Positions 3,641-59,870 of a stretch of 64,000 bases of DNA are shown here, piece after piece (position 1 is the first letter of the stretch; each line of letters begins with the position of its first letter). Source of the DNA: Bdellovibrio sp. BCCA (GTDB lineage Bacteria; Bdellovibrionota; Bdellovibrionia; Bdellovibrionales; Bdellovibrionaceae); contig NZ_JBBNAC010000002.1 in the NCBI RefSeq assembly GCF_037996825.1, positions 124,001 to 188,000 on the forward strand, written 5' to 3'. The notes beneath the pieces were generated by a model that worked only from the letters and a program-made list of their open reading frames with translations, had not been told where the DNA came from and ran no database searches. The translations under genes were made by a program, and so were the position numbers.

Positions 3641-4054
3641 TTAGTTTTGGTTCTGAAGATCTTTTATGGCAGCAATTACATCCCTATTTCCACGGCTAAT
3701 CTGAGTATTAATCTCGCGAGCAAGTGGATGGGAGGTTTCTATGAAGCTAAGATCTTTGAAAAGAATAGTTCGAAGATTTGATCCAAGAGTTTCAGGGTCG
3801 ATCTGCCCAACATGTGATTTGATTTCAAGCATTGGCCGTTGCGCGACGGATTCCGGAAACCACATTCCTTCAGCGTTTATGTCAGGATTGTAAGCGAAAT
3901 TGTTGATGCAATTCTCTGATAGAAATTTGAAGTACTTCTTAGGGATGTACACGCCAGTTCCGCCCTCTGCCGTCACGACGAAAACGTCGGGCACACTCAA
4001 TAGTTCCTGTGTCTCAGCTTTACCCCATGGTGTATTGAAAAACCGTTTTATCAT
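3641..4054 (-). CDS. Hypothetical protein, 137 aa
   Basis: Mixed alpha/beta composition with no membrane segment or signal peptide. The start has AGGGGG upstream. A CCCCATTTA element sits about 30 bp upstream, like those before several other genes here. It lies 22 bp upstream of thyA and may be co-transcribed. No family recognised. Confidence 0.65.
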   Translation of the reverse strand: MIKRFFNTPWGKAETQELLSVPDVFVVTAEGGTGVYIPKKYFKFLSENCINNFAYNPDINAEGMWFPESVAQRPMLEIKSHVGQIDPETLGSNLRTILFKDLSFIETSHPLAREINTQISRGNRDVIAAIKDLQNQN

Positions 4055-38344: not shown

Positions 38345-40966
38345 TTATCGCAAAAGATATTGAGGGGTTAAACAAGAATCAGACAAATTTGTCCCACAGT
38401 CCCCAGTTCCAGAATTGGGGCGGAAAGTTCCACCAAATGAACCCCAACATTTTACTGAGCCATCCTCAGCAAATGCGCACATCTCTTTCTGGGTCGTGGC
38501 ATACCCAACGATCTTATTCATGAGCGTCGGGCGAGAATCCGTTAAATAGGCATCCGTCCCTACAACATGAGTTAATGTCGGATTCCCGTAATAGCCGCTT
38601 CCGGCGATCACAGGCCCTCCCCAACAGGTCGATTGATATGCGGAAACCAGACACATGCCATAGCCGCGTTTGTCCAGGTAAAGAGCCTTTGCCGACGTAA
38701 CAGGATGATCAGAATAACCGTTAGTGTTTAGAAGCATCTCAGTCGCCCGGCTGACGTTAGTATTTGTTCCACTGAAGTTGTAAATGTCGTTTAATTCTTG
38801 TCCCCAACAGTAAAGCTTCTTATCGGGAGTTCCGACTAAAATGCACCCACCGCTTGTATTGACCGAGACAGCCTGTACTGGCTTAATTGTCGCATTTGAG
38901 GAATCTGTTAGATTGTATTTGATACCCCACGAGCCATCAGCTTCCTGTGTCGCAACCGTTTTAGGAGTTACTAGCCCAAGCTGATTTACATCGTTCGCAC
39001 CTCCACAATAAACTTCCTCAGAGCCTAGAGGACCCGCTACTATACACATAAATCCATTACCCACAGAAACATCTTTGATTTGAGAAATAACTCCGTGCCC
39101 ACTATCAGCTCTGGCTCTAGTCGCAAAATCCTTAGGTGTTTTGTTGACTGCTGGAGTTCCTGAAATCTTACCGATCTGATGAGCAGCATTTGCTCCCCAG
39201 CAATATAAATAGCCATCATTTGCACTAATTCCGCACGTATTATTAAATCCGGCGTAAATTGATGTAAACGGAATGCCTCCCATAAATGTTTTATTAGTTA
39301 CGGTAGATGATCCAATTTGAAGTTCTGAATTGTTTCCCTGGCAGCGAATTAATAGATCATCACCCAACATACATAAATGATTACTTCCCGCTGCAATATC
39401 AGTAATTTTCACACCAACTGGTGAAGCACTCACGGATGGCCAAATGTATGTCGAAGAAGAACTTGGTACAATCTGTCCATATACGTTACTTCCGTGGCAA
39501 CGAACATCTCCGCCGTGAGTAAGGATGCAAATAAAGTCATCACCGGAAACAATCTTTTTGGCACCGAATGCCTTCATTGGGATTGTGGTAATTAGTTCTT
39601 CAGATTTGTTTCCCACCCTATCCTCAAACGAACCAAAGGGAATGGATAGATCAATGTTGATATTCGTGAAGAAGCTAGGCCCTCCAGTGACAATATTGCT
39701 TCGCTCAGCTCCTGGTGTATTATCTGCCGTCACAGAGAAAATTACATTTTCTGAACCAATCAGCCCAATAGAAGCGAAATTAGCAACCGCTGAAATTAGG
39801 TTGGTAGCGAGAGGTGTTTTGACTCCTGATTTATTGTCAGAAAGATCGATGTATCCGGACGAAGAATCACCAAATCCAACAATATTCAAAGCAGGAGGAG
39901 CCGCATCACGCTCAAGGTCATATAGTTCCACGCAGCTTGAAGTAACTCCAGCAAGAGTGACCGCCACAGCGTAGATTGTAGTAACTGTTGGATATGGATA
40001 AAGACTAAGTTTTGCTGAAGTCATTCCATCATCGATAACGAGATTGCCGATAGGTGGAACACCATTAAATCCACAAGACGGATTATCAAAAATACGAATT
40101 GATGATTGCGAACTTGGATGAGCTTCAAGAACAAGCTCGTAACCAGTATCAGCCGCGAAGAAGCGATTAATTCCTTCAATTGCATCATTCAAACGAATAA
40201 CTTTTGGTGGTTGAGCTGCAACGGGTGCACAGACGCTGTCATTCTTTTCGTAATGGCGATCACAAATACAATCATCAATTGAAACTGACTTATCGCCAGC
40301 CGTAGAGGAATTCACTGGGCAGGCACGACGATCAGTCTCGCCGAATGAATAATAATTGTATCCGACTGCCACACAGCTTTTTTGACCAATTCCATCAGTC
40401 ACCATATAGTATCCGCTCGTACAACTTACAGGAGTGCAGCGAGTATATGCGCCATTCTCCCAAAGCTTTGTTCCGACAGTAGCATTAGCTTCAAATAGTT
40501 CCGCCGATGTGCACATCGCAATATCGGAAATACAAGTCGCACCAACCGCGTGATAGCCATTATGACAAGTGATTGTGTACGGACCTGTAGTAACGCCGAT
40601 GTCACAAGTCATTGTGCGAACGCCGCAAGTTACAGCTCCACAAGTAATATTTTGGTTCAATAAAGTTCCAGCTGGTGAGCGGTGATTGATTTTTTTAGGC
40701 TCCAATCCAGAACAGTTAGAATTCGGAACTGTGATGTTTGACTTAATTGAAAAGCATCGGAATAGAGTTCCGGAAACTTCCTTTGAACCCTGACATGGCT
40801 CAGTGAGGTCATTTGCAGGAAATGCCCATTCGGCGTCGAATTCATTCACAATAGGTGGAGAATAGAGATCCTCAAGACCTCCGTCTTCTTCCTTTGTACA
40901 GCCTGCAATCAATGCTGTTACAAGGACCGCCAAAACTACTTTAAATGAACCTCTAATATTGCTCAT
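38345..40966 (-). CDS. Large lipoprotein with RCC1-type repeats
   Basis: 873 residues. Lipobox IAGC, then a cysteine-rich region (about 55-250, many CxxG and paired cysteines, EGF-like in spacing), a beta-sandwich region (about 250-470), and a C-terminal set of RCC1-like blades with repeats such as ICILTHGGDVRCHGSNVYGQ, NTCGISANDGYLYCWGAN, GCILVGTPDKKLYCWGQ and EMCAFAEDGSVKCWG. Such beta-propellers bind proteins at the cell surface. Possible role in mating-pair or prey contact (inference). A CCCCATTTA element is 17 bp upstream. Confidence 0.85.
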   Translation of the reverse strand: MSNIRGSFKVVLAVLVTALIAGCTKEEDGGLEDLYSPPIVNEFDAEWAFPANDLTEPCQGSKEVSGTLFRCFSIKSNITVPNSNCSGLEPKKINHRSPAGTLLNQNITCGAVTCGVRTMTCDIGVTTGPYTITCHNGYHAVGATCISDIAMCTSAELFEANATVGTKLWENGAYTRCTPVSCTSGYYMVTDGIGQKSCVAVGYNYYSFGETDRRACPVNSSTAGDKSVSIDDCICDRHYEKNDSVCAPVAAQPPKVIRLNDAIEGINRFFAADTGYELVLEAHPSSQSSIRIFDNPSCGFNGVPPIGNLVIDDGMTSAKLSLYPYPTVTTIYAVAVTLAGVTSSCVELYDLERDAAPPALNIVGFGDSSSGYIDLSDNKSGVKTPLATNLISAVANFASIGLIGSENVIFSVTADNTPGAERSNIVTGGPSFFTNINIDLSIPFGSFEDRVGNKSEELITTIPMKAFGAKKIVSGDDFICILTHGGDVRCHGSNVYGQIVPSSSSTYIWPSVSASPVGVKITDIAAGSNHLCMLGDDLLIRCQGNNSELQIGSSTVTNKTFMGGIPFTSIYAGFNNTCGISANDGYLYCWGANAAHQIGKISGTPAVNKTPKDFATRARADSGHGVISQIKDVSVGNGFMCIVAGPLGSEEVYCGGANDVNQLGLVTPKTVATQEADGSWGIKYNLTDSSNATIKPVQAVSVNTSGGCILVGTPDKKLYCWGQELNDIYNFSGTNTNVSRATEMLLNTNGYSDHPVTSAKALYLDKRGYGMCLVSAYQSTCWGGPVIAGSGYYGNPTLTHVVGTDAYLTDSRPTLMNKIVGYATTQKEMCAFAEDGSVKCWGSFGGTFRPNSGTGDCGTNLSDSCLTPQYLLR

Positions 40967-43043: not shown

Positions 43044-43144
43044 AACACCTTGCCTTGGCAGGGGAAGTGCCTATCGAGATGCCTGCAATAGTAGGGTCGG
43101 TGAAGTAGGAATGAACTAAAAAATCAGATACTTAAACCGGGTCG
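43044..43144 (+). ncRNA. tracrRNA/omegaRNA-like scaffold, upstream copy
   Basis: 101-nt non-coding segment that recurs at 44638-44738 with about 7 differences (93% identical). The 5' part has short complementary pieces (GGCA/TGCC and GCAGG/CCTGC) that allow hairpins or a pseudoknot. The 3' part, 43114-43138, is an anti-repeat: it pairs with the adjacent repeat at 43144-43170 through about 21 base pairs (three G-U) closed by the loop GGGTC. Scaffold and first repeat would therefore form one folded guide RNA whose 3' end is the 30-nt segment at 43181. Transcription has not been shown. Confidence 0.75.
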
Positions 43145-43276
43145 GTTCAGAGGTAATTGATTTTAAGGTTTAACCAGAGGCTTGCGCGAGATATTTGTGT
43201 TTCAAGAGATGTTCAGAGGTAACTGATTTTAAGGTTTAACCAGAGGGACTCGCCTGGGATCACTCGGAATTGTGTA
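43145..43276 (+). CRISPR. Mini repeat-spacer array 1 (two 36-nt repeats)
   Basis: Repeats at 43145-43180 and 43211-43246 differ at one base; both start GTTCAGAGGTAA and end GTTTAACCAGAGG. Between them is a unique 30-nt spacer (43181-43210). The 30 bases after the second repeat (43247-43276) may be a second guide. The array follows the scaffold without a gap. No third repeat was found. Repeat and spacer lengths are normal for type V CRISPR, but an array of two repeats next to a TnpB-size protein and without cas1/cas2 is not. Confidence 0.75.
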
Positions 43277-43335
43277 GTTATAGCTTAGCTGGTTTTGAGT
43301 TATCAGTGATACCCGGATAGTTCCAACTTGATACG

Positions 43336-43398
43336 ACTACCACCTTTACCTTTAATACCACGGCAAGTCGAGCTACCATGTTTATCATGGTAAGCATT
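43336..43398. promoter_or_regulatory. 9-bp repeat cluster, up to seven copies, over the tnpB start
   Basis: In-phase nonamers ACTACCACC, TTTACCTTT, AATACCACG, GCAAGTCGA, GCTACCATG, TTTATCATG and GTAAGCATT. The longest cluster in the window. Both possible ATG starts of the nuclease gene lie inside it. TACCATG and CATGGTA also make a perfect 7-bp palindrome with a 5-bp centre. Binding of a regulator here would block both transcription and the start codon. Confidence 0.6.
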
Positions 43399-44628
43399 AG
43401 AAATATCAAATGTCGACTTTATTTAAACTCAACCCAATCTTCCCTAATGGAGATGTATCAATCTCACTGTAGATTGGTATGGAATCTAGCCCTTCATCAA
43501 AGAGAAGAATATTGGAACAAAGCTAGCACTCATGGACCACTTCAATATAAGGAAGCGCATGGTAGCATTTCTGAATATGGCCAGTCAGCAGAACTCACAG
43601 TATTAAAAAACGACTTCCCGTTCCTTTATGACACCCCAGCTGGAACTTTAACAAATGTTTTAACTGCTCTTGATCAGTCGTACAAATTATTCTTCTCAAA
43701 CTTAAAGAAGAAAAATGGATTAGCTGGAAAGCCTCGCTACAAAAGAAGCACTGACTCAATCCCTCTAAAATTTAAAGGGAATGCGAATACCAAACGCGGT
43801 TACACTCCAGTGAGAATAGACGGTCAGAACTATGCACGAATCTTTCTAGACAAAATAGGATCGGTCAGATTCAGATGCCATGAAGAGGTGATCGGAAAAG
43901 TTAAAAACTGCATGGTTAAAAAGGAAACTGATGGATGGTATATAACCCTGGCAGTAGAAGGCGAATTTACGCGAGAAAATAGATCGCACAAAATGATCGG
44001 CATTGATCTTGGAGTTATTCATACTGTGACGACATCGGAGGGAGAACATATTGACATGCCTACTGAGTTTCAATTGATTGAGGAGAGAATTAAATTTCTC
44101 AAATCGCGTAATGATCGTCGAAAAGTTAAATTCTCAAACAGCTGGAAGAAAGAAGTCAGGAAGATCGCCAAACTCCAACAAAAGCTCGCACGAGCAAAAG
44201 ATTACTTCATTAAAATGACCGCAAACAAGTTGACCACCGAAAATTTTTTGGTCGTTCTTGAGGATTTGAAGGTTAAAAATATGACGAGATCCGCAAAGGG
44301 AACCATCGAAGATCCAGGAAGAAATGTTGCTGCTAAAAGTGGTTTGAATCGATCCATTTTATCCAATAACTGGGCTGCCCTTAGAAATAAAATTGTTCAA
44401 ATGGGAAGCAAAAATGGATGCGAAGTCGTTCTCGTCAATCCTAAACATACGTCTCAAACATGCTCGTCGTGTGGTTTGATTCACATCGATAATCGGCGAA
44501 CACAAGAGCATTTTAAATGTATTGGGTGCGGAACAGAGATGAATGCTGACGTAAATGCTGCGATCAACATCTTGCGGCTCGGAGAGCCCAAGTTTAGATC
44601 CAGTACAGATGACAAAAAGGTTGCTTAG
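43387..44628 (+). CDS. tnpB: TnpB-family RNA-guided nuclease (Cas12-like), intact
   Basis: 413 residues from the ATG at 43387 (43378 gives three more; neither has a ribosome site). The N-terminal OrfB domain (IRNIKCRLYLNSTQ, RLVWNLAL, GLAGKPRYKRSTDS) is followed by a RuvC fold with all three acidic sites: D in MIGIDLG, E in VVLEDLKVKN, D in NADVNAAINIL. A zinc finger CSSCG ... CIGCG is complete. Size equals ordinary TnpB, much smaller than Cas12a. No TnpA is adjacent. Both flanks carry scaffold-repeat-spacer units in the same direction. It should cut DNA chosen by those guides. It could still be a transposon remnant, but intact motifs and duplicated guide units argue for a working system. Confidence 0.93.
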   Translation: MVSIRNIKCRLYLNSTQSSLMEMYQSHCRLVWNLALHQREEYWNKASTHGPLQYKEAHGSISEYGQSAELTVLKNDFPFLYDTPAGTLTNVLTALDQSYKLFFSNLKKKNGLAGKPRYKRSTDSIPLKFKGNANTKRGYTPVRIDGQNYARIFLDKIGSVRFRCHEEVIGKVKNCMVKKETDGWYITLAVEGEFTRENRSHKMIGIDLGVIHTVTTSEGEHIDMPTEFQLIEERIKFLKSRNDRRKVKFSNSWKKEVRKIAKLQQKLARAKDYFIKMTANKLTTENFLVVLEDLKVKNMTRSAKGTIEDPGRNVAAKSGLNRSILSNNWAALRNKIVQMGSKNGCEVVLVNPKHTSQTCSSCGLIHIDNRRTQEHFKCIGCGTEMNADVNAAINILRLGEPKFRSSTDDKKVA

Positions 44629-44637
44629 AAGAATTAA

Positions 44638-44738
44638 AACACCTTGCCTTGGCAGGGGAAGTGCCTACTGAGATGCCTGCGTTGGTGGGGTCGATGAAGT
44701 AGGAATGAACTAAAAAATCAGATACTTAAACCGGGTCG
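44638..44738 (+). ncRNA. tracrRNA/omegaRNA-like scaffold, downstream copy
   Basis: Second copy of the 101-nt scaffold, beginning 9 bp after the nuclease stop codon. This is the place where omegaRNA lies in TnpB transposons. The anti-repeat (44708-44732) is identical to the upstream one and pairs with the repeat at 44738-44763 through about 20 base pairs around the loop GGGTC. Repeat changes relative to array 1 keep pairing (G-U becomes A-U; U-G becomes C-G). Likely transcribed by read-through from the nuclease gene. Confidence 0.75.
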
Positions 44739-44869
44739 GTTCTAAAGTACCTGATTTGAGGTTTAACCAGAGGATATTGTCTCTTGTTCAAGATAAGGTC
44801 AAGGTTCTAATGTAACTGATTTTGAAGTTTAACCAGAGGTGAGGCTGTGCTTTGATTTAAAAATAACAT
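44739..44869 (+). CRISPR. Mini repeat-spacer array 2 (35- and 36-nt repeats)
   Basis: Repeats at 44739-44773 (35 nt) and 44804-44839 (36 nt) share the invariant end GTTTAACCAGAGG with array 1. The unique 30-nt spacer is 44774-44803; a possible terminal guide is 44840-44869. A strong terminator begins ten bases later. The repeats here are more like each other than like array 1 at their 5' ends (GTTCTAA against GTTCAGAG), so the arrays diverged after duplication while anti-repeat pairing was kept. Confidence 0.75.
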
Positions 44870-44878
44870 ATTTATGAC

Positions 44879-44906
44879 AAAAGGGGGGCTTCGCCCCCCT
44901 TTTTTT
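44879..44906. terminator. Strong bidirectional terminator
   Basis: GGGGGGC/GCCCCCC stem with a 3-nt loop flanked by an A-run and a T-run. It ends array 2 on the plus strand and the 725-aa gene on the minus strand. Confidence 0.9.
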
Positions 44907-51310: not shown

Positions 51311-53758
51311 TTAAATTTTTAGTTTCTCCGTTGCCAGGATATCCTTGAGGGACGGGACTGAAAGGCGCTCAGCCCAAATCATGAGCTCCCCGTCCTTCTT
51401 CGACAGGCTTCCAGTAACGATAAGTGGGTAAGAATACTTAGTATTTGCCACTACGCCATTTCTGTAGGTGTCGCTCTCACGATCTCGTTCCAACACGTCA
51501 GCCCCCACACCGATCTTCAGAGTTTGACCTGATTGTTCGACGGTAATGAAAGCCATATCGCGGCCTTGGTTTTTTCCCTGCTTTTTGACTTTTTTAATCA
51601 TTGGAGCTTCTGTTACAAACCCAATGATTGTTACGAGATCTCGATCATCGCATTCATAAAGTTCGCGGAATCTCTTAACTGGAGCTCGCATGACACTTTC
51701 AATATGCGGAATTCTGTCGATCATGTAGAGGTGGTAGTCGCACGATGAGGTATTTAAGAGTCCAACTTGCCTCAATAACATCGAAATCTTCGGCATCTTG
51801 TTGATAACTTGAAGTTCATCCAAAGCTTTTTGAAGTGTTTTGGTCATCTTTCCTTTTTTGTCAGCAATTGTTACTCCCTCGACTTTTTCTTCCGGTGTGA
51901 GTGGCTCAACTCCATTTTTAATTGCGACATATTTCGAAATGAGATCCTTCCGGAAATCCATTACGTCCATGTCTTTAGGGGCCAAGCAATCAGCACCTCC
52001 AGCCAAAACAACACACTTAAAAGGCTTTAATCCGAGGTTCGCATCAGTAATTGAGCGAAGAGCAAAATCATCCGCATTTTTGTAAGGGGCATGTTTCTCA
52101 ATATCCTTACCTTGAGATGCGACGAATTTAATTTCATTGAACGCCAGATACACTTTACCTTTGTGCGTGGCGTTTTCTTCAGCTTTTGATAAGTTCACAT
52201 TTGGTGGCCTAATCACATCTTGCCAAGCTGGATAGAATCGTCTGAACTCTTCATCTTTTAAATGAGGGATCGAGCAAGAGATAAAGTCTTCACGGTAATA
52301 GTGATTCAAGTACTGCGTGATGTATGCGTTTAAGCCGTAGCTCATTGAGTGAGCCTTATTGAATCCGTAGCCACCGAATTTCAAAATATCTTCCCAGATC
52401 TTTGTTGCAAGGCTCTCGTCAATCTTTTGAGCCTTAACGCCCTTCATATACTTCTCTTTGTAGGAAGCCATGATGTCCGGATCCTTTTTGGAAACCGCCT
52501 TGATGAATTTTGCTATATCACCCTCATTTAGTTGGCCGATTTCACGCATAATTCCCATGATTTGCTCCTGATAAATCAGAAGACCATAGGACTCTTTAAG
52601 AATTGGCTCTAACTGCGGCAGGGCGTGCTTGACGTGAAGCTTTCCATTCATGACATCCATTAACATGTCATCCACGCCAGCACCCATAGGACCAGGACGG
52701 ATTGTTGCAACCATTACCGAGGCGCTGTCAGGAGAGTTGAAGGCTTCGGGCTTTTTAATACGCACCATTGCCTTTTCGAATGTTGGAGTCTTAAATTGAA
52801 AAATTCCCTCGAGTGTCATCGCTGGAAGGGTAAACTTTCGCCACACATCTTGATCAAATAAATCAATCTTGTTTTTATCAAAGTCGATACCGCGATCACG
52901 TTTTAGCTTACGGCGAGTATCTCGAATGACTGATAAAGTTGAGAGACCGAGATAATCGTATTTAATAAGACCGCTGATTTCTACAGCCTTCATTTCTGGG
53001 CTCGTCACGTACATCTGATGGTCTTCACTCCATTCGCATGGACAAACCTCATAGATCGGGCGGTCAGGCGACATACACAGACCAGCGGCGTGAACACCAC
53101 GGCTTACAGCCTGTCCAATCATATTATTGATTTCGTCATTGGCCTGAGGGTAAGACTCTAGGAAGGTTTTGATCTTAGTATCTTCAGCAACGATGCGCTC
53201 AAGGATGTCTTTCTGAGTGAGGAGCTTGACAGCATCTTCACCTTCTTCATCCATAACTTGTTTTGTAATAACCTTTTCCCAGCGCTGGATAGTGTCAGTG
53301 ATATCGTTTACATAATCGAACGGAACTTCCGGATAGATCTGACGCATTACTGCCTTGATTGCACCAGCTACCTTAAAAGTTCCCTTGGTTCCAATCAGGC
53401 AAACGTGCTCAAGACCATAGGTCTTAACTTTGTAGTCTTTGATCTTATCGCGGCATGTGGTATCAAAGTCATTATCCGGTAGTGATCCGTACTTGATAGG
53501 AAAACGCTTCTTTGGTTTATCATTTGAAATTCCAAGTGCGTAAACGACGATCATTCCAGGAGTGTTTTCAACTGGATCTTTGATTTGAGACTTCACATCA
53601 AGAAAGTATTTCGCTTCCCACGGATTACATTCAAGATAGAACAATTCTCTTTCAAGATCTTCTGTTGAAAATTCATTGATTCGAGTTTGGTCAAGTGCCT
53701 TTACTAACTGATCGTAGTAAGGTTTGTATTCCATGAATTTCGTAATTCGTATATCCAT
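51311..53758 (-). CDS. dnaE: DNA polymerase III alpha, C-terminal catalytic half (split DnaE)
   Basis: 815 residues. After 90 residues unlike DnaE, the sequence joins the family at SLPDNDFDT (catalytic aspartates of the PDxD motif, 95 and 97), then IGTKGTFKVAGAIKAVMRQ, the third aspartate in KYDYLGLSTLS (D268), RPGPMGAG, YQEQIMGIMREIG and GYGFNKAHSMSYG. An OB-fold follows near the C-terminus (TIIGFVTEAPMI). The preceding part of DnaE, up to GRGSAAAC and SPER, is encoded separately at 63428. No intein sequence is seen at the break. The two products must associate to make a polymerase. Confidence 0.9.
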   Translation of the reverse strand: MDIRITKFMEYKPYYDQLVKALDQTRINEFSTEDLERELFYLECNPWEAKYFLDVKSQIKDPVENTPGMIVVYALGISNDKPKKRFPIKYGSLPDNDFDTTCRDKIKDYKVKTYGLEHVCLIGTKGTFKVAGAIKAVMRQIYPEVPFDYVNDITDTIQRWEKVITKQVMDEEGEDAVKLLTQKDILERIVAEDTKIKTFLESYPQANDEINNMIGQAVSRGVHAAGLCMSPDRPIYEVCPCEWSEDHQMYVTSPEMKAVEISGLIKYDYLGLSTLSVIRDTRRKLKRDRGIDFDKNKIDLFDQDVWRKFTLPAMTLEGIFQFKTPTFEKAMVRIKKPEAFNSPDSASVMVATIRPGPMGAGVDDMLMDVMNGKLHVKHALPQLEPILKESYGLLIYQEQIMGIMREIGQLNEGDIAKFIKAVSKKDPDIMASYKEKYMKGVKAQKIDESLATKIWEDILKFGGYGFNKAHSMSYGLNAYITQYLNHYYREDFISCSIPHLKDEEFRRFYPAWQDVIRPPNVNLSKAEENATHKGKVYLAFNEIKFVASQGKDIEKHAPYKNADDFALRSITDANLGLKPFKCVVLAGGADCLAPKDMDVMDFRKDLISKYVAIKNGVEPLTPEEKVEGVTIADKKGKMTKTLQKALDELQVINKMPKISMLLRQVGLLNTSSCDYHLYMIDRIPHIESVMRAPVKRFRELYECDDRDLVTIIGFVTEAPMIKKVKKQGKNQGRDMAFITVEQSGQTLKIGVGADVLERDRESDTYRNGVVANTKYSYPLIVTGSLSKKDGELMIWAERLSVPSLKDILATEKLKI

Positions 53759-53852
53759 CTTGGACCCCCGAAGTCACGAACACGCTCGATGAGTGAGCGA
53801 GTCCATACATGGGGTTAACTCCAAATAGTGGAATTCTAAGAATAAAATGTGA

Positions 53853-54110
53853 TTAATTATGTCCGTTCTGAGAGGTATCTTTTTGAGATGACAGTTTTCC
53901 GAATCGAGTCTTAATTTTTGCTCTAACGATCTTTGCAAGCTTAAAATTAGTGAGAAGAAATAAGCAAAATATAGAACCCGCAAAAAAAATTGTTCGCGAA
54001 ATTGCGAAGACAAAATAAAGAGACAGTGCCCAAATAAGCAGAACAGCCGCAGCGATCACTGCGACTCTCAAAATTACCGTTTTGGCTCTCTCTAATTCAA
54101 GGTTCTTCAC
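53853..54110 (-). CDS. Small membrane protein, 85 aa
   Basis: GTG start inside the stop of the upstream gene (GTGA overlap). Two membrane spans (about 12-31 and 35-52) and a basic C-terminal tail. No family recognised. Three coupled small genes (54756 to 53853) lie between the exonuclease and polymerase genes. Confidence 0.6.
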   Translation of the reverse strand: MKNLELERAKTVILRVAVIAAAVLLIWALSLYFVFAISRTIFFAGSIFCLFLLTNFKLAKIVRAKIKTRFGKLSSQKDTSQNGHN

Positions 54111-54400
54111 TTAGCTACTTTCCAGTCAATGATTGTACATCGACTTGATTGAATTCTGATAACTTCGCGATCTTGTGGCATCTGACCTTCTTTGTTCGGA
54201 AACACCGCTTTATCACCACAACCACGAATATGAACCTTAAGTACTCCTTCATCACTCTTTACGACGGCAAGAGTATTGTATCCTTCATCTTTTGGAACCT
54301 CGAACTCATGCCGCTCTGGCTTTTTGATGTTGCTTGGAAAGAAGGCGTTAGCCTCCAGTGCGGTAATCAAAAGTACAGAAATGAAGATTAGTGATTTCAT
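54107..54400 (-). CDS. Small exported protein, 97 aa
   Basis: Signal peptide ends near ANA-FFPSN. Strand-rich mature part with two cysteines (HIRGCGD, SSRCTII) likely disulphide-bonded. Starts in an ATGA overlap with the 119-aa gene. No family recognised. Confidence 0.65.
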   Translation of the reverse strand: MKSLIFISVLLITALEANAFFPSNIKKPERHEFEVPKDEGYNTLAVVKSDEGVLKVHIRGCGDKAVFPNKEGQMPQDREVIRIQSSRCTIIDWKVAK

Positions 54401-54756
54401 GCTAAACCCATCTGTTTCGGCTTTTGTTCTTTAAGTCGAATGATTTTGATGGCATTCTTCCAACCTTCCACATTGATATTCATCTTTGCTAAGACAGTAT
54501 CTCTGAATGGGTTATGACCATTGAATACAAGGTCCCGAGTCATCTGATATTTTTCAGCCGCAAGCTTTCTGTCCTTTTTGCAAAGGTTCATGCAGATTTC
54601 ACCAAGTTGATGAGCCACGTACAAATAAGGATCGTTTACTGCATCGTCTGGATGAATCATCGATTTGCGCTCTTCTTCAGTTGCAGCGTAATAACTCTCG
54701 CGGACCTTTTCGATCATCTTTTCAGGAACCTTAAATAGTTGTTTTTGCGTTTCCAT
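54397..54756 (-). CDS. Hypothetical protein, 119 aa
   Basis: Helical cytoplasmic protein (YYAATEEERKSMIHPDDAV, then KKDRKLAAEKYQMTRDLVF). Followed by two coupled genes. It lies 25 bp downstream of the exonuclease gene. No family recognised. Confidence 0.6.
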   Translation of the reverse strand: METQKQLFKVPEKMIEKVRESYYAATEEERKSMIHPDDAVNDPYLYVAHQLGEICMNLCKKDRKLAAEKYQMTRDLVFNGHNPFRDTVLAKMNINVEGWKNAIKIIRLKEQKPKQMGLA

Positions 54757-54781
54757 ATCAGTCCTCTCAGTCCTTTAACTA

Positions 54782-56977
54782 CTAAGCAGCCATTTTCGCT
54801 TCTACTTTTTTCGCCTGTACCTTACCGAACGATACTACGGCCTCCTGGGCGACCTGTACTGTTGCCATATATTCTGCGACCAAGAAGTCTTCACCTTTTG
54901 CGATAGCGCTTTGAAGTTTGCGACGATCAACGAATACCACCTTGTTGTCCAAAGTGTGTCGAATTGAGTCAGCGAAAACTGATCTCTCTTCCCCGTTAAC
55001 CTTGAATTTAACAACCATCGCTGCACCTTTGCGCATTTGCTTGGCTGTCTCAATATTGTACTCAACCATTGATTCAACGAACTCCGCAGCATCAACAGCG
55101 GAATTGTCGATGTATCGTGCCCTCGTGATGCAGGTTGGTCCCATTCCCATTTGTTTTGAGAATTCCTTTGAAAGCTTGCGATTACACATTGCACATTGGA
55201 CATTGGAGGCGGCAGCCGATGGTGGTAAATGGTCATCAATCGTCATTTGCATTGGCGATTGACCTTCTTCCTTCGCTTCAGCACCACCATCAATTAGAGT
55301 CAGTTTTGGGGTCTCTTTTGAGCTTAAAGATTGAACACCCTCAAGAGGCTGAGTCATGCCTGCAAAGCTTGGTTGATAGGAATCATCAACAGCATTTGCA
55401 TCAAGATAGTAATCAGCAAAGAAATTAGCTTTATCTGTGTTGATCTTCTCAAAGCTCTTTGGATATTTTTGTTTAAACAGCAATGCTAAAGACTGAATGG
55501 CCTCCATTTTAGATGGGTTCCCTCGAACAGCGTCAATAGCATTCCTTAACTCCCCTTCAAGGGCTAAAGGATGTTTAGGATCTTCAAAATCACCGGGTGT
55601 CGGCAAATCTTTGATCCTCTTTTCAAGCATTTCGAAGTTCAAACACTTTTTTACAAGTGCACCCTTTAGAGCCGCCTTGCTTGTGAACTTTTCGCGATAG
55701 AGCGTACCATTCCCAGTAACCTTCACCATATAGTGACCAGAAGGGTGGCAAGCGATCTCAACTGTTTCATTCGGGAATACATCGCGGAAAAACGGCACAT
55801 TTCCGAAGGTACTAATATCCCGCGTCCACCCACGAAGACCTCTAGCAGTATGCATTCGCTCAGCACGAGTCAAAACAGTTTTCGCGGAAACCCTACTCTT
55901 TAGGTCCTTAGTAAGTTCCGCCATAACTTGATCGTACTCCAATTTCTTGTTCGGAGCTGTCGCCATCCTTGATCTAACCTTCTCAATCAACTCAAAGTTT
56001 TTTGAATCCTCATGAAAAATATTGCTCTCGATTGAATTTTTCATGCTCGAGAAATCTGGAGAACTCAACACATCCTTAATCATCTCAGGATTCGCGTCTG
56101 AAATAGCGTTAAGGCGTTGCTCTTCATCTGGTGACACTTCATGCACATCAATAATCGTCTCGTAATTAAAGCGTCGAACTGCGGTGTCTTTGAATTTCCC
56201 CTTGTTCTTGTTAAAAATATCGTCATCGTCAACGGCTGCAATCATCATCTTCTCATTATCATTCATGAGAACTTTGATATTCCTACGCTTCATTCCTGAT
56301 GATTTAGAGAATGTTGTGACGGAATATACTTTTCCTTCTTCAAAGGCAGCAATATCCGGTGAAGGGTCGGTGATTTTCTTTCCATTAGATAGCAATGGAT
56401 AAAGATGATGACCAATCTTTCGACTCATTAAAATATCTGGCAACGATCTATGTGCACCTTTTCCCTCGAACTCAAAACCAAGTGCTTTCGCTACAGCTGA
56501 TTGAGCTACAGAGCTTTTTCCGCCTTTCGTTTTTTCTGTGGTGATAATTCCGGCTTTTACGGCATTGTCTGAGATCTTCATAAGTTCGACGTGGGTTTTT
56601 GTAACGTAATCACCAAGTCTCTTTCCTTGACGAGCAAAGGCCACGGCAAGAAACCCAGTATCAAACGACACTTTTTGCCCTGCAATGCGAGGTTTTACGC
56701 CGTTAACGGTATGCTTTTCAAAGAGATCAATATACTTTTGGACCATCTGGGCTTCAGTAATAGAAGCTTCAGCGTAAGCTTTCGAAAATGGATTAATACC
56801 GTTGATCTCAAGTGCTTTTGGACTTGGAGTAACGCCATCTTTAAGTTTAACGTACCCTTCAACCGTTTCAATAAGATCACCATTTTCATCATCAACGGCA
56901 GCAGCAAATTCCAGGGCCTGGTCATCAGCCTTATTTGTTCCCGTGGTTTCTAAGTCTGTCCAAATTAACCTTCCCAT
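54782..56977 (-). CDS. DnaQ-type 3'-5' exonuclease with C-terminal zinc knuckle
   Basis: 731 residues; start at the ATG with GGGAGG upstream. Residues 1-200 are a DEDD exonuclease: LIWTDLETTGTN (Asp, Glu), GQKVSFDTGFL (Asp) and GAHRSLPDILMS (His, Asp). It may proofread for the split polymerase, which lies in the same gene block. The middle 350 residues are unrecognised. The last part has CAMCNRKLS and MGMGPTC, a zinc knuckle like the one that begins the 725-aa protein at 44905. Confidence 0.82.
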   Translation of the reverse strand: MGRLIWTDLETTGTNKADDQALEFAAAVDDENGDLIETVEGYVKLKDGVTPSPKALEINGINPFSKAYAEASITEAQMVQKYIDLFEKHTVNGVKPRIAGQKVSFDTGFLAVAFARQGKRLGDYVTKTHVELMKISDNAVKAGIITTEKTKGGKSSVAQSAVAKALGFEFEGKGAHRSLPDILMSRKIGHHLYPLLSNGKKITDPSPDIAAFEEGKVYSVTTFSKSSGMKRRNIKVLMNDNEKMMIAAVDDDDIFNKNKGKFKDTAVRRFNYETIIDVHEVSPDEEQRLNAISDANPEMIKDVLSSPDFSSMKNSIESNIFHEDSKNFELIEKVRSRMATAPNKKLEYDQVMAELTKDLKSRVSAKTVLTRAERMHTARGLRGWTRDISTFGNVPFFRDVFPNETVEIACHPSGHYMVKVTGNGTLYREKFTSKAALKGALVKKCLNFEMLEKRIKDLPTPGDFEDPKHPLALEGELRNAIDAVRGNPSKMEAIQSLALLFKQKYPKSFEKINTDKANFFADYYLDANAVDDSYQPSFAGMTQPLEGVQSLSSKETPKLTLIDGGAEAKEEGQSPMQMTIDDHLPPSAAASNVQCAMCNRKLSKEFSKQMGMGPTCITRARYIDNSAVDAAEFVESMVEYNIETAKQMRKGAAMVVKFKVNGEERSVFADSIRHTLDNKVVFVDRRKLQSAIAKGEDFLVAEYMATVQVAQEAVVSFGKVQAKKVEAKMAA

Positions 56978-57002
56978 ATTCCTCCCAAACTTCGTCCACC
57001 CA

Positions 57003-57011
57003 TAAATAGGG
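57003..57011 (-). promoter_or_regulatory. CCCWTTTA element
   Basis: CCCTATTTA on the minus strand, 26 bp upstream of the exonuclease start and directly after the helicase gene stop. Confidence 0.4.
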
Positions 57012-57041
57012 CTGACGTGGATTTTCAGTAAATCCGCCGTT

Positions 57042-58694
57042 CTAGAACGTGCAATCAACGCCGTAATATGAACACAGAGTTTTAATCCTGATCTTTGATT
57101 GCTTTTTGGCGGATTTGTTCCACCAATCCCAAATATTGAACAAACGAAGGGTCTTTTCTTTCATTTGTGTTCTGGCTCCTCGGCCAGCTCGCTGAATTGC
57201 CCTGATCGAGCTTTTTCCCCATGATCCAAGATAGACTGTATCGATACCAGGAACGTCTACGGCGATTCCAAAAGACATCGTTCCCACAACAATATATGGT
57301 GTTTCTGAAGTCGCGATCTTCTTAAGCTCCGCCATCTTTTGTTTCAAAGATAGCTCGCCCGAAATGAAAAACACTGGGATATCGGTTCGCATATCCAAAA
57401 AATGTTTTAAGCAATAGCTTTTATCCTCATCATCGTCTTTGCCGCGATACTGTCCGATTTCATCAATTGCAATGAACACCATGTGACCCTCGGTCGCATC
57501 ACGATATGCCCATTCAACGATCATTTTGTTACGATCACGATTACGAATGATCCCCTCATCAATAATTGTTCGAGGATCTCGTGAATTCATTAGGCGTTCA
57601 CTGATGGTAACCGTTTTGCCACCAACATTAATATCCCTCTTGATGTAGAACTTTTCTGGCGCTGGAGAATTGAGGGATTGAAGTGAAACTTTTGCATGAA
57701 TTCCTTTCTCAATAGCCTCATCAATTGGGAACTCGTAAATCATTTTATTATTAAAGAGCGCGTTTAGGATGCGATCTTCCTGAGCTTGATCACGCCAGTT
57801 TGTGGCACTTAAGCCGTACAGGTACGTTGGGTTTGACGCAAGAATAAGATTTCTTGTTAACTTTGCGTATGCACCATGAGATTCATCAATAATCAAAAGA
57901 TTAATTTTTTCGATATACCAATAAGGAAGATTTGGAATTGAAGCTGCACAAATAATATGAATTGGTTTTTCCCAATTCTTTTCGACAAATCTTTCTAACT
58001 GACGCTCTCGAGCCTTATCAATGGACCATTTCCTGTGTTCAGGAGTTCCCTTCTTAGGTTTATCTTTCTTTTGCTGCTTCTTTTGCAGCCAGATTTCATA
58101 ACTCGAAAGTTCTGGTTGCTCCTCTGTCTGGTCTTCACTTACGGCAGTACTTCGCCTTTTTAGTTCACGACCCACTTCAGGAGGTCTTTGCGGAACATCA
58201 ATGGAAACATTTTTCTTCCCAAAACAGGAGCTAAGCTCTTCATAAGCGTTCATTTGGGCTAATTCAGTTGGTGTAATAATTAGGGTTGTGGTCTGCTTTT
58301 GATTTACGATCAAAGATGTTATGAAAGTTTTTCCACTCCCTGTTGGGGATGATACTTTACCGACCGGAAATTCATCAGTTCCGGCCTCTATATTCTCCTG
58401 GTGTTCCATGGCCACTTTGTCGGTGGTCATCATAAGCTTTCGATAGTCAATACGCTCTGTACGAGCGTTAATAACTTCCGTTTCAATTTTAAACTTGCGC
58501 TTCATGCGCTCTCGAAAGTGATCCACCATACCCAGTGGGATGCATCTCTTATGAATATAAGAAAGATAGATTATTTCTTGCCTATGATTTTTGTAGGAAA
58601 TTCTGGCGCAATTATAGACAGATTCCGTATGCTCCGTTTCAAAAAGAAGCTCCGCTTTTGAATTCTTAAGGAGAATTTTAACGGGTTTTTCCAC
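57042..58694 (-). CDS. SF2 DNA helicase (UvsW-like)
   Basis: 550 residues. Motif I SSPTGSGKTF, motif II LLIIDESHGAY, motif III YGLSATNWR, motif V TMSFGIAVDVPGID and motif VI QRAGRGARTQ are all present. A basic insert (about 200-245, KKQQKKDKPKKG) separates the first motifs. The N-terminal 100 residues are unlike the core. The arrangement is like phage UvsW/RecG-type helicases that remodel forks and recombination intermediates. Directly downstream of recA. Confidence 0.88.
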   Translation of the reverse strand: MEKPVKILLKNSKAELLFETEHTESVYNCARISYKNHRQEIIYLSYIHKRCIPLGMVDHFRERMKRKFKIETEVINARTERIDYRKLMMTTDKVAMEHQENIEAGTDEFPVGKVSSPTGSGKTFITSLIVNQKQTTTLIITPTELAQMNAYEELSSCFGKKNVSIDVPQRPPEVGRELKRRSTAVSEDQTEEQPELSSYEIWLQKKQQKKDKPKKGTPEHRKWSIDKARERQLERFVEKNWEKPIHIICAASIPNLPYWYIEKINLLIIDESHGAYAKLTRNLILASNPTYLYGLSATNWRDQAQEDRILNALFNNKMIYEFPIDEAIEKGIHAKVSLQSLNSPAPEKFYIKRDINVGGKTVTISERLMNSRDPRTIIDEGIIRNRDRNKMIVEWAYRDATEGHMVFIAIDEIGQYRGKDDDEDKSYCLKHFLDMRTDIPVFFISGELSLKQKMAELKKIATSETPYIVVGTMSFGIAVDVPGIDTVYLGSWGKSSIRAIQRAGRGARTQMKEKTLRLFNIWDWWNKSAKKQSKIRIKTLCSYYGVDCTF

Positions 58695-58718
58695 GGCAGC
58701 GCCTCTAACAGAGGGGAT

Positions 58719-58742
58719 CCGCCCTCGAATTAACGAGGGCGG
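58719..58742 (-). other. Hairpin between recA and the SF2 helicase gene
   Basis: Nine-bp perfect stem CCGCCCTCG/CGAGGGCGG with a 6-nt loop. No T-run follows, so it may weaken transcription or protect the recA message rather than stop it. Confidence 0.5.
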
Positions 58743-58754
58743 AAAGGGGTTAAA

Positions 58755-59870
58755 CTACTTCTTCTTTCCTTTTTTTGGTGTCGATTCTTCAGTTTCATCT
58801 GAAGGTTCATTATTCTCCTCAGGATCGGACTTGCTACCTGTTTCGGCCAGAAGTGCGCCGACACCTTTTTTCGCAAGCAATTCAGCACGAAGTGATTCCA
58901 TGTAGTGAGGATTCTCTTTCAAGAATTTCTTCGCTTGATCACGCCCTTGACCCATACGTTCACCGTTAATTGAGAACCAAGCGCCCGATTTCTCAACGAG
59001 GTTCGCTGTCACAGCCAAGTCAAGCACATCGCCTTCTGCTGAGATACCTTCACCATACATCAAATCAAACTCAACTTTCGCAAACGGGGGAGCCATTTTG
59101 TTCTTAACAACTTTGACGGAAGTACGATTTCCAGTTACCTCTTCACCGTTTTTGATCGCGCCAACGCGGCGCACATCCAAACGAACTGAAGAGTAGAATT
59201 TCAATGCGTTACCACCCGTTGTAGTTTCTGGGTTACCAAACATCACACCAATTTTCATACGAATTTGATTGATGAAAATGACCAGCGTTTTTGATTGATT
59301 GATTGCAGCTGTAAGCTTTCGGAGAGCTTGAGACATCAAACGAGCTTGCAGACCTACATGAGAATCACCCATGTCTCCTTCGATCTCTGCACGAGGAACC
59401 AACGCCGCTACGGAGTCGACAACTAGTACGTCAATCGCGCCAGAGCGAACAAGTGTTTCAGTGATTTCCAAAGCTTGTTCACCTGTGTCTGGTTGAGAGA
59501 TCAAAAGATCTTCTGTGTTCACACCCAATTTACGAGCGTAGTTAACATCCAATGCATGTTCCGCATCGACGAAAGCAACAACGCCGCCTTTTTTCTGAGC
59601 TTGAGCAATAACAGACAAGCAAAGAGTTGTTTTACCAGAAGACTCTGGTCCGTAGATTTCTACGATACGACCTTTTGGAAGGCCACCGATTCCTAATCCA
59701 ATATCAAGACTTAATGAACCAGTACTTACTGCCTCAGCAGTATGTAAGACCTCTGTGTTCGCCAGTCGCATAATAGAACCTTTACCGAACTGCTTTTCGA
59801 TATTGGATACTGCGAGTTCAAGCGCCTTCATTTTTTCGTTGTTTGCTTTATCAGTGTTTGGATTTGCCAT
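58755..59870 (-). CDS. recA: RecA recombinase
   Basis: 371 residues, full length. Walker [10 protein letters not shown], Walker [17 protein letters not shown], loop L1 [14 protein letters not shown], loop L2 [17 protein letters not shown] and [11 protein letters not shown] are intact, with an acidic C-terminal tail. It resembles bacterial chromosomal RecA rather than phage UvsX; my impression is of a Bdellovibrio-type sequence. Promotes strand exchange and SOS induction. A 9-bp repeat cluster lies 34 bp upstream. Confidence 0.98.

Follow-up and report, generated by a model that had tools for sequence, protein, structure and literature searches.

How did a transposon nuclease with one guide become a CRISPR (clustered regularly interspaced short palindromic repeats) effector with a guide library? 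The question is open, and the answer is usually inferred from the end states. It is raised here by a locus on a plasmid of Bdellovibrio sp. BCCA. The window, meaning the whole stretch of DNA analysed, comprises 64 kb of contig C2 (209,039 bp), in a genome of two contigs and 4.01 Mb; it contains a gene for the RNA-guided nuclease TnpB with a unit of scaffold, repeats and 30-nucleotide (nt) segments on each side. Judging from the sequence, the locus probably (at a probability of about 0.7) represents a plasmid TnpB with an omega-RNA divided by function into a scaffold resembling a trans-activating CRISPR RNA (tracrRNA) and repeats resembling those of CRISPR RNA (crRNA), with up to four guides.

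Architecture of the Locus

All parts of the locus lie on the (+) strand in the order unit 1 (43044–43312), tnpB (43378–44628) and unit 2 (44638–44869). Unit 1 stands upstream of tnpB and unit 2 directly downstream, both in the direction of the gene. The units are direct copies of one layout: a scaffold of 101 nt, a repeat of 36 or 35 nt, a 30-nt segment, a second repeat of 36 nt and another segment. A repeat finder recovered a 127-nt direct repeat (43044–43170 and 44638–44764, 88% identical) and a family of 36-nt repeats starting at 43145, 43211, about 44739 and 44804. The start-to-start spacing is 66 nt on each side, which confirms the two direct copies of scaffold, repeat, 30-nt segment and repeat described in a first-pass annotation of this DNA. 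With up to three mismatches allowed, the repeat pattern occurs in three copies in the window and in none of 100 shuffles.

The unit 1 scaffold (43044–43144), tracrRNA-like and apparently derived from an omega-RNA, is fused in cis to repeat u1R1 (43145–43180). There follow spacer-like segment S1 (43181–43210), repeat u1R2 (43211–43246), spacer-like segment S2 (43247–43276) and a candidate degenerate terminal repeat (43277–43312). The last begins exactly 30 nt past u1R2, in the 66-nt register; the repeat closest to it is u2R2 (19 of 36 positions), and 0.09% of window positions score equally high. The unit 2 scaffold (44638–44738) begins immediately past the tnpB stop codon, in the usual position of an omega-RNA, and is likewise fused in cis to its first repeat, the 35-nt u2R1 (44739–44773). 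Spacer-like segment S3 (44774–44803), repeat u2R2 (44804–44839) and a terminal guide-like segment, S4 (44840–44869), complete the unit. No repeat was found after S4; the unit runs into an intrinsic terminator-like hairpin (44883–44906) that can be read from both sides.

The scaffolds are identical at 94 of 101 positions, with all seven differences within positions 31–57 and a perfectly conserved end (the last 44 nt, 44/44). The repeats agree pairwise at 29–35 of 36 positions. Segments S1–S4, by comparison, have 7–10 of 30 positions in common in any pair, which is roughly the chance level. Since the scaffolds and repeats are clearly copies and the segments are unrelated, the segments were presumably exchanged after the duplication, with the length of 30 nt maintained. 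The tests made support the view that the 30-nt segments behave like spacers. Anatomically, the locus has what characterises a type V array, namely constant repeats and unique spacers of constant length beside an effector gene, in the form of two arrays of two repeats, the minimal size.

The TnpB Protein

The protein encoded between the units is TnpB by every test made. It has 416 amino acids (aa), or 413 aa if translation begins at the alternative start codon ATG 43387. The Pfam domains OrfB_IS605, HTH_OrfB_IS605 and Cas12f1-like_TNB each exceed their cut-offs, and the NCBIfam family guided_TnpB scores 249.6 bits (cut-off 100). RuvC residues D210, E295 and D391, together with Cys 362, 365, 381 and 384, are invariant across 44 relatives, and the earlier description of an intact TnpB of about 413 aa with three RuvC acids and a zinc finger therefore holds. 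A length of about 400 aa, the OrfB_IS605 and TNB domains, a full RuvC triad and a zinc ribbon are the features by which a TnpB is recognised, and all of them are present. The AlphaFold model (mean predicted local distance difference test score, pLDDT, 85.6) is closest to ISDra2 TnpB (8h1j; Z 29.6, 353 residues aligned), with Fanzor2, Cas12f and LaTranC behind it (Z 20–23).

In phylogenetic trees, the branch of the protein (labelled P0001) greatly exceeds in length those of all other TnpBs compared (2.48; median 0.28) and looks as though the constraints on the protein had changed. Searching 148 relatives and 144 genomes from the class for TnpB gave no match besides the window TnpB, and single-protein scans of the genome contigs and viral contigs with this TnpB gave no relatives.

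The Scaffold as a Diverged Omega-RNA

Omega-RNAs of the InsQ-like group were gathered from 160 related TnpB loci. They have in common the elements GCCUGUGGAGA, GAAGCAGGAAC and GUAGGAAUCC, then a hairpin and GGAGGAUGUCAA, directly followed by the guide. The relatives possess a central and a terminal hairpin, whereas the window RNA would form one long hairpin from the scaffold end and the first repeat. Since the 3′ half differs in this way, a full-length model was supplemented with a covariance model restricted to the 47-nt core. In the 64 kb searched, the two best matches of the core model are those in unit 1 (43068–43112; rank 1, 17.7 bits, E 4e-4) and unit 2 (44662–44706; rank 2, 13.7 bits, E 0.013), both on the correct strand and at the same place within each scaffold. 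With the same model, the omega-RNAs that other distant relatives carry just past their tnpB score 14.7–21 bits; the unit cores are therefore about as good as genuine distant omega-RNAs. The stem CCUGU:GCAGG, invariant among the relatives, is CCUAC:GUAGG in unit 2, where both sides have changed and the pairing is kept. Such elements typically carry their omega-RNA at the 3′ end of tnpB or beyond it, and the core at 44662 occupies that place, with the second core at 43068. Taken together, the tests support the interpretation of the scaffold as a diverged omega-RNA.

Rfam gave no match at gathering thresholds and only sub-threshold matches at lax E-values (for example, EGFOA-assoc-1 with 20.6 bits, where the cut-off is 224.5). 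An exact 19-nt scaffold pattern had no match in IMG/VR, comparison of the units with plasmids and phages at the DNA level gave no match, and no further copy of the scaffold–repeat units was found elsewhere in the 4.01-Mb genome.

Predicted Pairing of the Repeats with the Anti-Repeat

Each scaffold contains an anti-repeat, at 43112–43133 in unit 1 (scaffold positions 69–90) and at 44706–44727 in unit 2. Each of the four repeats, taken as a separate strand, is predicted to form the same helix with it (18–23 base pairs). Three positions of the helix vary among the repeats (G-U/G-C, U-G/U-A and U-G/U-A), and no pair is broken; the one-base deletion of u2R1 is located in a bulge. Between none and eight of 300 shuffled repeats reach an equally low pairing energy. 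A tracrRNA-type anti-repeat complementary to the repeats, as in tracrRNA-dependent type V systems, is present according to this predicted pairing, and the modelling supports pairing of the repeats with the scaffold as crRNA with tracrRNA.

The first repeat of a unit is predicted to pair in cis, giving a single-piece omega-RNA, while the second repeat would have to do so in trans or in competition with the first. The earlier characterisation of the locus as the protein of TnpB with the RNA layout of type V CRISPR is sound as anatomy, given the TnpB domains, the omega-RNA core and the predicted repeat pairing.

Related Loci and the Array of Phage Contig L068

A search for homologous loci with a count of their repeats, as proposed in the first-pass annotation, covered 189 related loci (80 + 80 + 29). 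An array was found near tnpB in one of them, phage contig L068 (IMGVR_UViG_3300038505_000022), which has two repeats. A degenerate repeat pattern had five matches in IMG/VR: four single copies in unrelated DNA, with no array, and L068. The layout in this contig is a normal omega-RNA, a 31-nt guide, a 36-nt repeat, a 30-nt spacer, an identical repeat and a guide.

The last guide of L068 opens a 133-nt stretch that is 98% identical to the 3′ end of a phage gene across the element. The identity starts exactly at the repeat end, which therefore acts as the guide boundary there; within the guide, position 6 is the only mismatch to the other copy. This guide may target forms of the gene without the element. 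The two copies of the gene end (L068:2259–2391 and L068:3970–4102) are a direct duplication flanking the TnpB element; together with the guide, the duplication suggests homing or the exclusion of element-free phages.

The L068 repeat is similar to u2R1, with one of 20,000 shuffles equally good; for the other three window repeats, 35–277 of 20,000 were. In the tree, the L068 TnpB falls within a set of ordinary TnpBs, and the relatives closest to it (75–89%) have no array, so the two arrays were not inherited with the protein. The window and L068 repeats either moved between elements or converged. A second Cas12-like gene was not seen among the open reading frames (ORFs) of the parts of L068 read.

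Genomic Context

The locus had been placed on a conjugative or phage-like replicon. The first term is reasonable, as contig C2 carries a TrbI-like gene; nothing phage-like was seen, although no full test of that was made. The plasmid also encodes a DNA polymerase III alpha-like protein, an exonuclease, a helicase and RecA (window 51311–59870), with conjugation genes not far off.

TnpA (Y1_Tnp), which a complete IS200/IS605 element includes, is missing from the plasmid, and its three matches in the genome are confined to the chromosome. IS1341-type elements likewise have no TnpA. The three Y1 transposase-like genes (G000:C1:348753, 400450 and 578236) encode ORFs of 219–229 aa, longer than IS200 TnpA, and are perhaps associated with repetitive extragenic palindromic (REP) sequences. 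In a search for an empty site, the neighbouring gene had no relative in the genomes searched, and the ends of an inserted element could therefore not be drawn.

Counter-Evidence and Alternative Explanations

Several results weigh against a functional split of the omega-RNA in this locus. No Cas1 was found in the genome, which leaves no known source of new spacers, and each unit has only two good repeats. The full-length omega-RNA model gives marginal E-values for the units (0.02 and 0.09) and places unit 2 third, below a chance site; these values are weak because the 3′ half differs, with one long hairpin in place of two. The anti-repeat is not alone in its pairing energy: other sites in the window reach −22 kcal/mol, and energy by itself would not be proof. 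An anti-repeat to the L068 repeats (3868–3969) was not found in the parts of that contig read, so the L068 and window systems may not work alike. Finally, the search of the 30-nt segments against plasmid, phage and host genomes, which the first-pass annotation had called for, produced no convincing target: S1–S4 had only chance-level matches in phage and plasmid collections, with no convincing protospacer, and a search of IMG/VR for 20-nt seeds of S1, S2 and S3 gave no exact match.

The genome itself contains no second copy of the segments, and S1 has no other match at three or fewer mismatches. S2 matches C2:94435–94464, outside the window on the same plasmid, at 24 of 30 positions, with mismatches at guide positions 2, 7, 22, 25, 28 and 30. 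None of 700 shuffles reached 24, and the probability of a chance match is therefore a few parts per thousand, allowing for four segments. The mismatches show no preference for third codon positions, which makes the match a lead and not a target; the site is possibly a divergent copy of the real target of S2. It lies within a gene for an RCC1-like lipoprotein. This plasmid has two large genes for lipoproteins in which RCC1-like Cys-Trp-Gly repeats were recognised by eye (window 38345–40966 and C2:92448–94826).

The alternative that survives best is an ordinary TnpB element. The repeats would have arisen by duplication of the right end of an IS1341-like element, the segments would be former flanking DNA, and scaffold-R1-S1 would be the only part, if any, to work as an omega-RNA. 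TnpB guides are normally flanking DNA (PMC8612924), and the last guide of L068 is indeed flanking, duplicated DNA; the absence of Cas1 and the frequency of solo tnpB genes on plasmids also agree with this explanation. It does not account for the interval of exactly 30 nt that separates the repeats of three arrays (two in the window and one in L068), which would not be expected from successive insertions, and it leaves the pairing of the second repeat with the scaffold without a purpose. Moreover, 188 of the 189 related loci have no such duplication. On balance, an ordinary element is unlikely.

Considerably less probable is the use of the arrays by another CRISPR effector, in this or another host, with TnpB as a passenger. 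Phage mini-arrays of similar size do use host systems (PMC11656645), and L068 has its array next to a TnpB that is ordinary in other respects and has close relatives without arrays. However, the window TnpB is the sole carrier of a TNB domain in the genome, with no second TnpB/Cas12f-like protein found; as Cas1 is also missing, TnpB is the only candidate user of the arrays found (no search was made for Cas9 or for types I and III). The repeats, furthermore, pair by prediction with a scaffold that itself appears to be an omega-RNA of this TnpB family.

There is a similarly slight chance that the locus is a decayed relic, an array formerly used and now functionless. The small number of repeats, the degenerate third repeat, the very long protein branch and the lack of close relatives are in keeping with decay, but the reading frame and the catalytic and zinc residues are intact, the anti-repeat is identical between the units (44/44) and every repeat still pairs according to prediction. 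TnpB homologues have been exapted as repressors, and TldR proteins have lost the RuvC triad. Given its complete triad, the window TnpB is very unlikely to be a TldR-like or Cas12m-like RNA-guided repressor that binds without cutting, even in a plasmid setting that resembles V-M systems (PMC11656645).

Proposed Mechanism and Its Meaning

Under the preferred interpretation, a multi-guide TnpB with a split omega-RNA, a single transcript would span unit 1, tnpB and unit 2 and would be trimmed by TnpB, which is reported to process its own messenger RNA (PMC10278001). The scaffold and first repeat would form a long cis hairpin, and scaffold-R1-S1 could be used like a normal one-piece omega-RNA whose guide has 30 nt. 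Pairing of the second repeat with the anti-repeat in trans would let R2-S2 serve as a crRNA with the scaffold. TnpB could in this way take up as many as four guides, and its RuvC domain would cut matching double-stranded DNA. Transcription, processing, loading and cutting at the locus are all inferred.

By cutting element-free copies, TnpB can spread elements through populations of plasmids (PMC11870625). Viral mini-arrays and type V-M plasmid systems, which are carried by mobile elements and have one or two spacers, have been proposed to act in competition between elements (PMC11656645). By analogy with both, the most likely purpose, tentatively put forward, is competition between mobile elements through attack on related plasmids or phages.

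A more far-reaching version is conceivable but somewhat doubtful: one transcript would give TnpB a single-piece omega-RNA (scaffold-R1-S1) as well as a split scaffold and crRNA (R2-S2), spacers would be exchanged without Cas1, and the locus would capture the step from one guide to an array in progress, in a lineage distinct from those of Cas12n and TranC. With the first repeat joined to the scaffold and the second free, joined and split RNA can be tested side by side with the same protein. The locus would also hint that spacers can change without Cas1. If the interpretation is true, a very small nuclease (416 aa) with several guides would be borne by a plasmid and may act against rival elements.

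Comparison with Known Systems

The nearest ordinary relatives are InsQ-type TnpBs, related to IS200/IS605 and found on E. coli and Salmonella plasmids (for example, WP_071961415.1; about 36% identity over 96% of the window TnpB). Their loci have the same omega-RNA core and stem and the same order of tnpB and omega-RNA. Unlike the window locus, they have a single omega-RNA ending in GGAGGATGTCAA, with one guide directly after it, and no repeats, anti-repeat or upstream copy. L068 has in common with the window an array downstream of tnpB, the 36-nt repeat, the 30-nt spacer and a similar repeat sequence; its TnpB is about 32% identical to P0001 and, in contrast to the window, a complete normal omega-RNA precedes the array. 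Viral mini-arrays and V-M systems use host effectors or Cas12m, whereas the window locus has its own TnpB and scaffold.

As regards named type V effectors, the window TnpB remains under the NCBIfam cut-offs for C2c8 (129.5 of 350 bits), Cas12f2 (81.4 of 450) and Cas12e (52.7 of 200). The PADLOC Cas12u4 profile scores the ordinary L068 TnpB higher (291 bits) than P0001 (217 bits), and the PADLOC Cas12u4 and Cas12f profiles therefore do not discriminate. The best PDB sequence match is Cas12n (type V-N, formerly V-U4/C2c9; RdCas12n, PDB 9j09; 3e-28), which is TnpB-like, as is the window protein. The tracrRNA of Cas12n is tied to the effector gene and lies inside the effector messenger RNA (PMC11641405); the tracrRNA-like part of the window lies outside the gene, in two copies. 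The tree does not join P0001 and Cas12n, and forcing them together gives a p value of 0.0565 in the approximately unbiased (AU) test, at which the grouping is not strictly rejected, with one partial Cas12n sequence and both branches long. Filing the protein under Cas12n, as the best PDB match would have it, was dropped in view of this tree and of the preference of the Cas12u4 profile for an ordinary TnpB.

TranC, the subject of a 2025 Cell abstract, is reportedly a TnpB-like protein whose guide is split into tracrRNA and crRNA and which can use both an omega-RNA (also termed reRNA, right-end RNA) and an array. The anatomy of the window locus fits TranC. LaTranC (PDB 9jfo/9jfq) has the same fold as the window TnpB (Z 21.0) but belongs to a different TnpB lineage, with a sequence match of only E ~1e-8; in the window, unlike in TranC, scaffold and first repeat are joined, and arrays flank the gene on both sides.

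The first-pass label of an intermediate is better replaced by that of an independent, parallel derivative, since the tree gives no sign of a line to any named Cas12. Around 50 TnpB–array associations have been inferred (PMC12669027). In terms of sequence anatomy, the window locus bears the marks of a tracrRNA-dependent type V array without adaptation genes or proven targets. Its kind is already known from TnpB-to-CRISPR events, Cas12n and TranC; new here are the separate lineage, the first repeats still joined to the scaffold, the array on each side of the gene and the plasmid setting.
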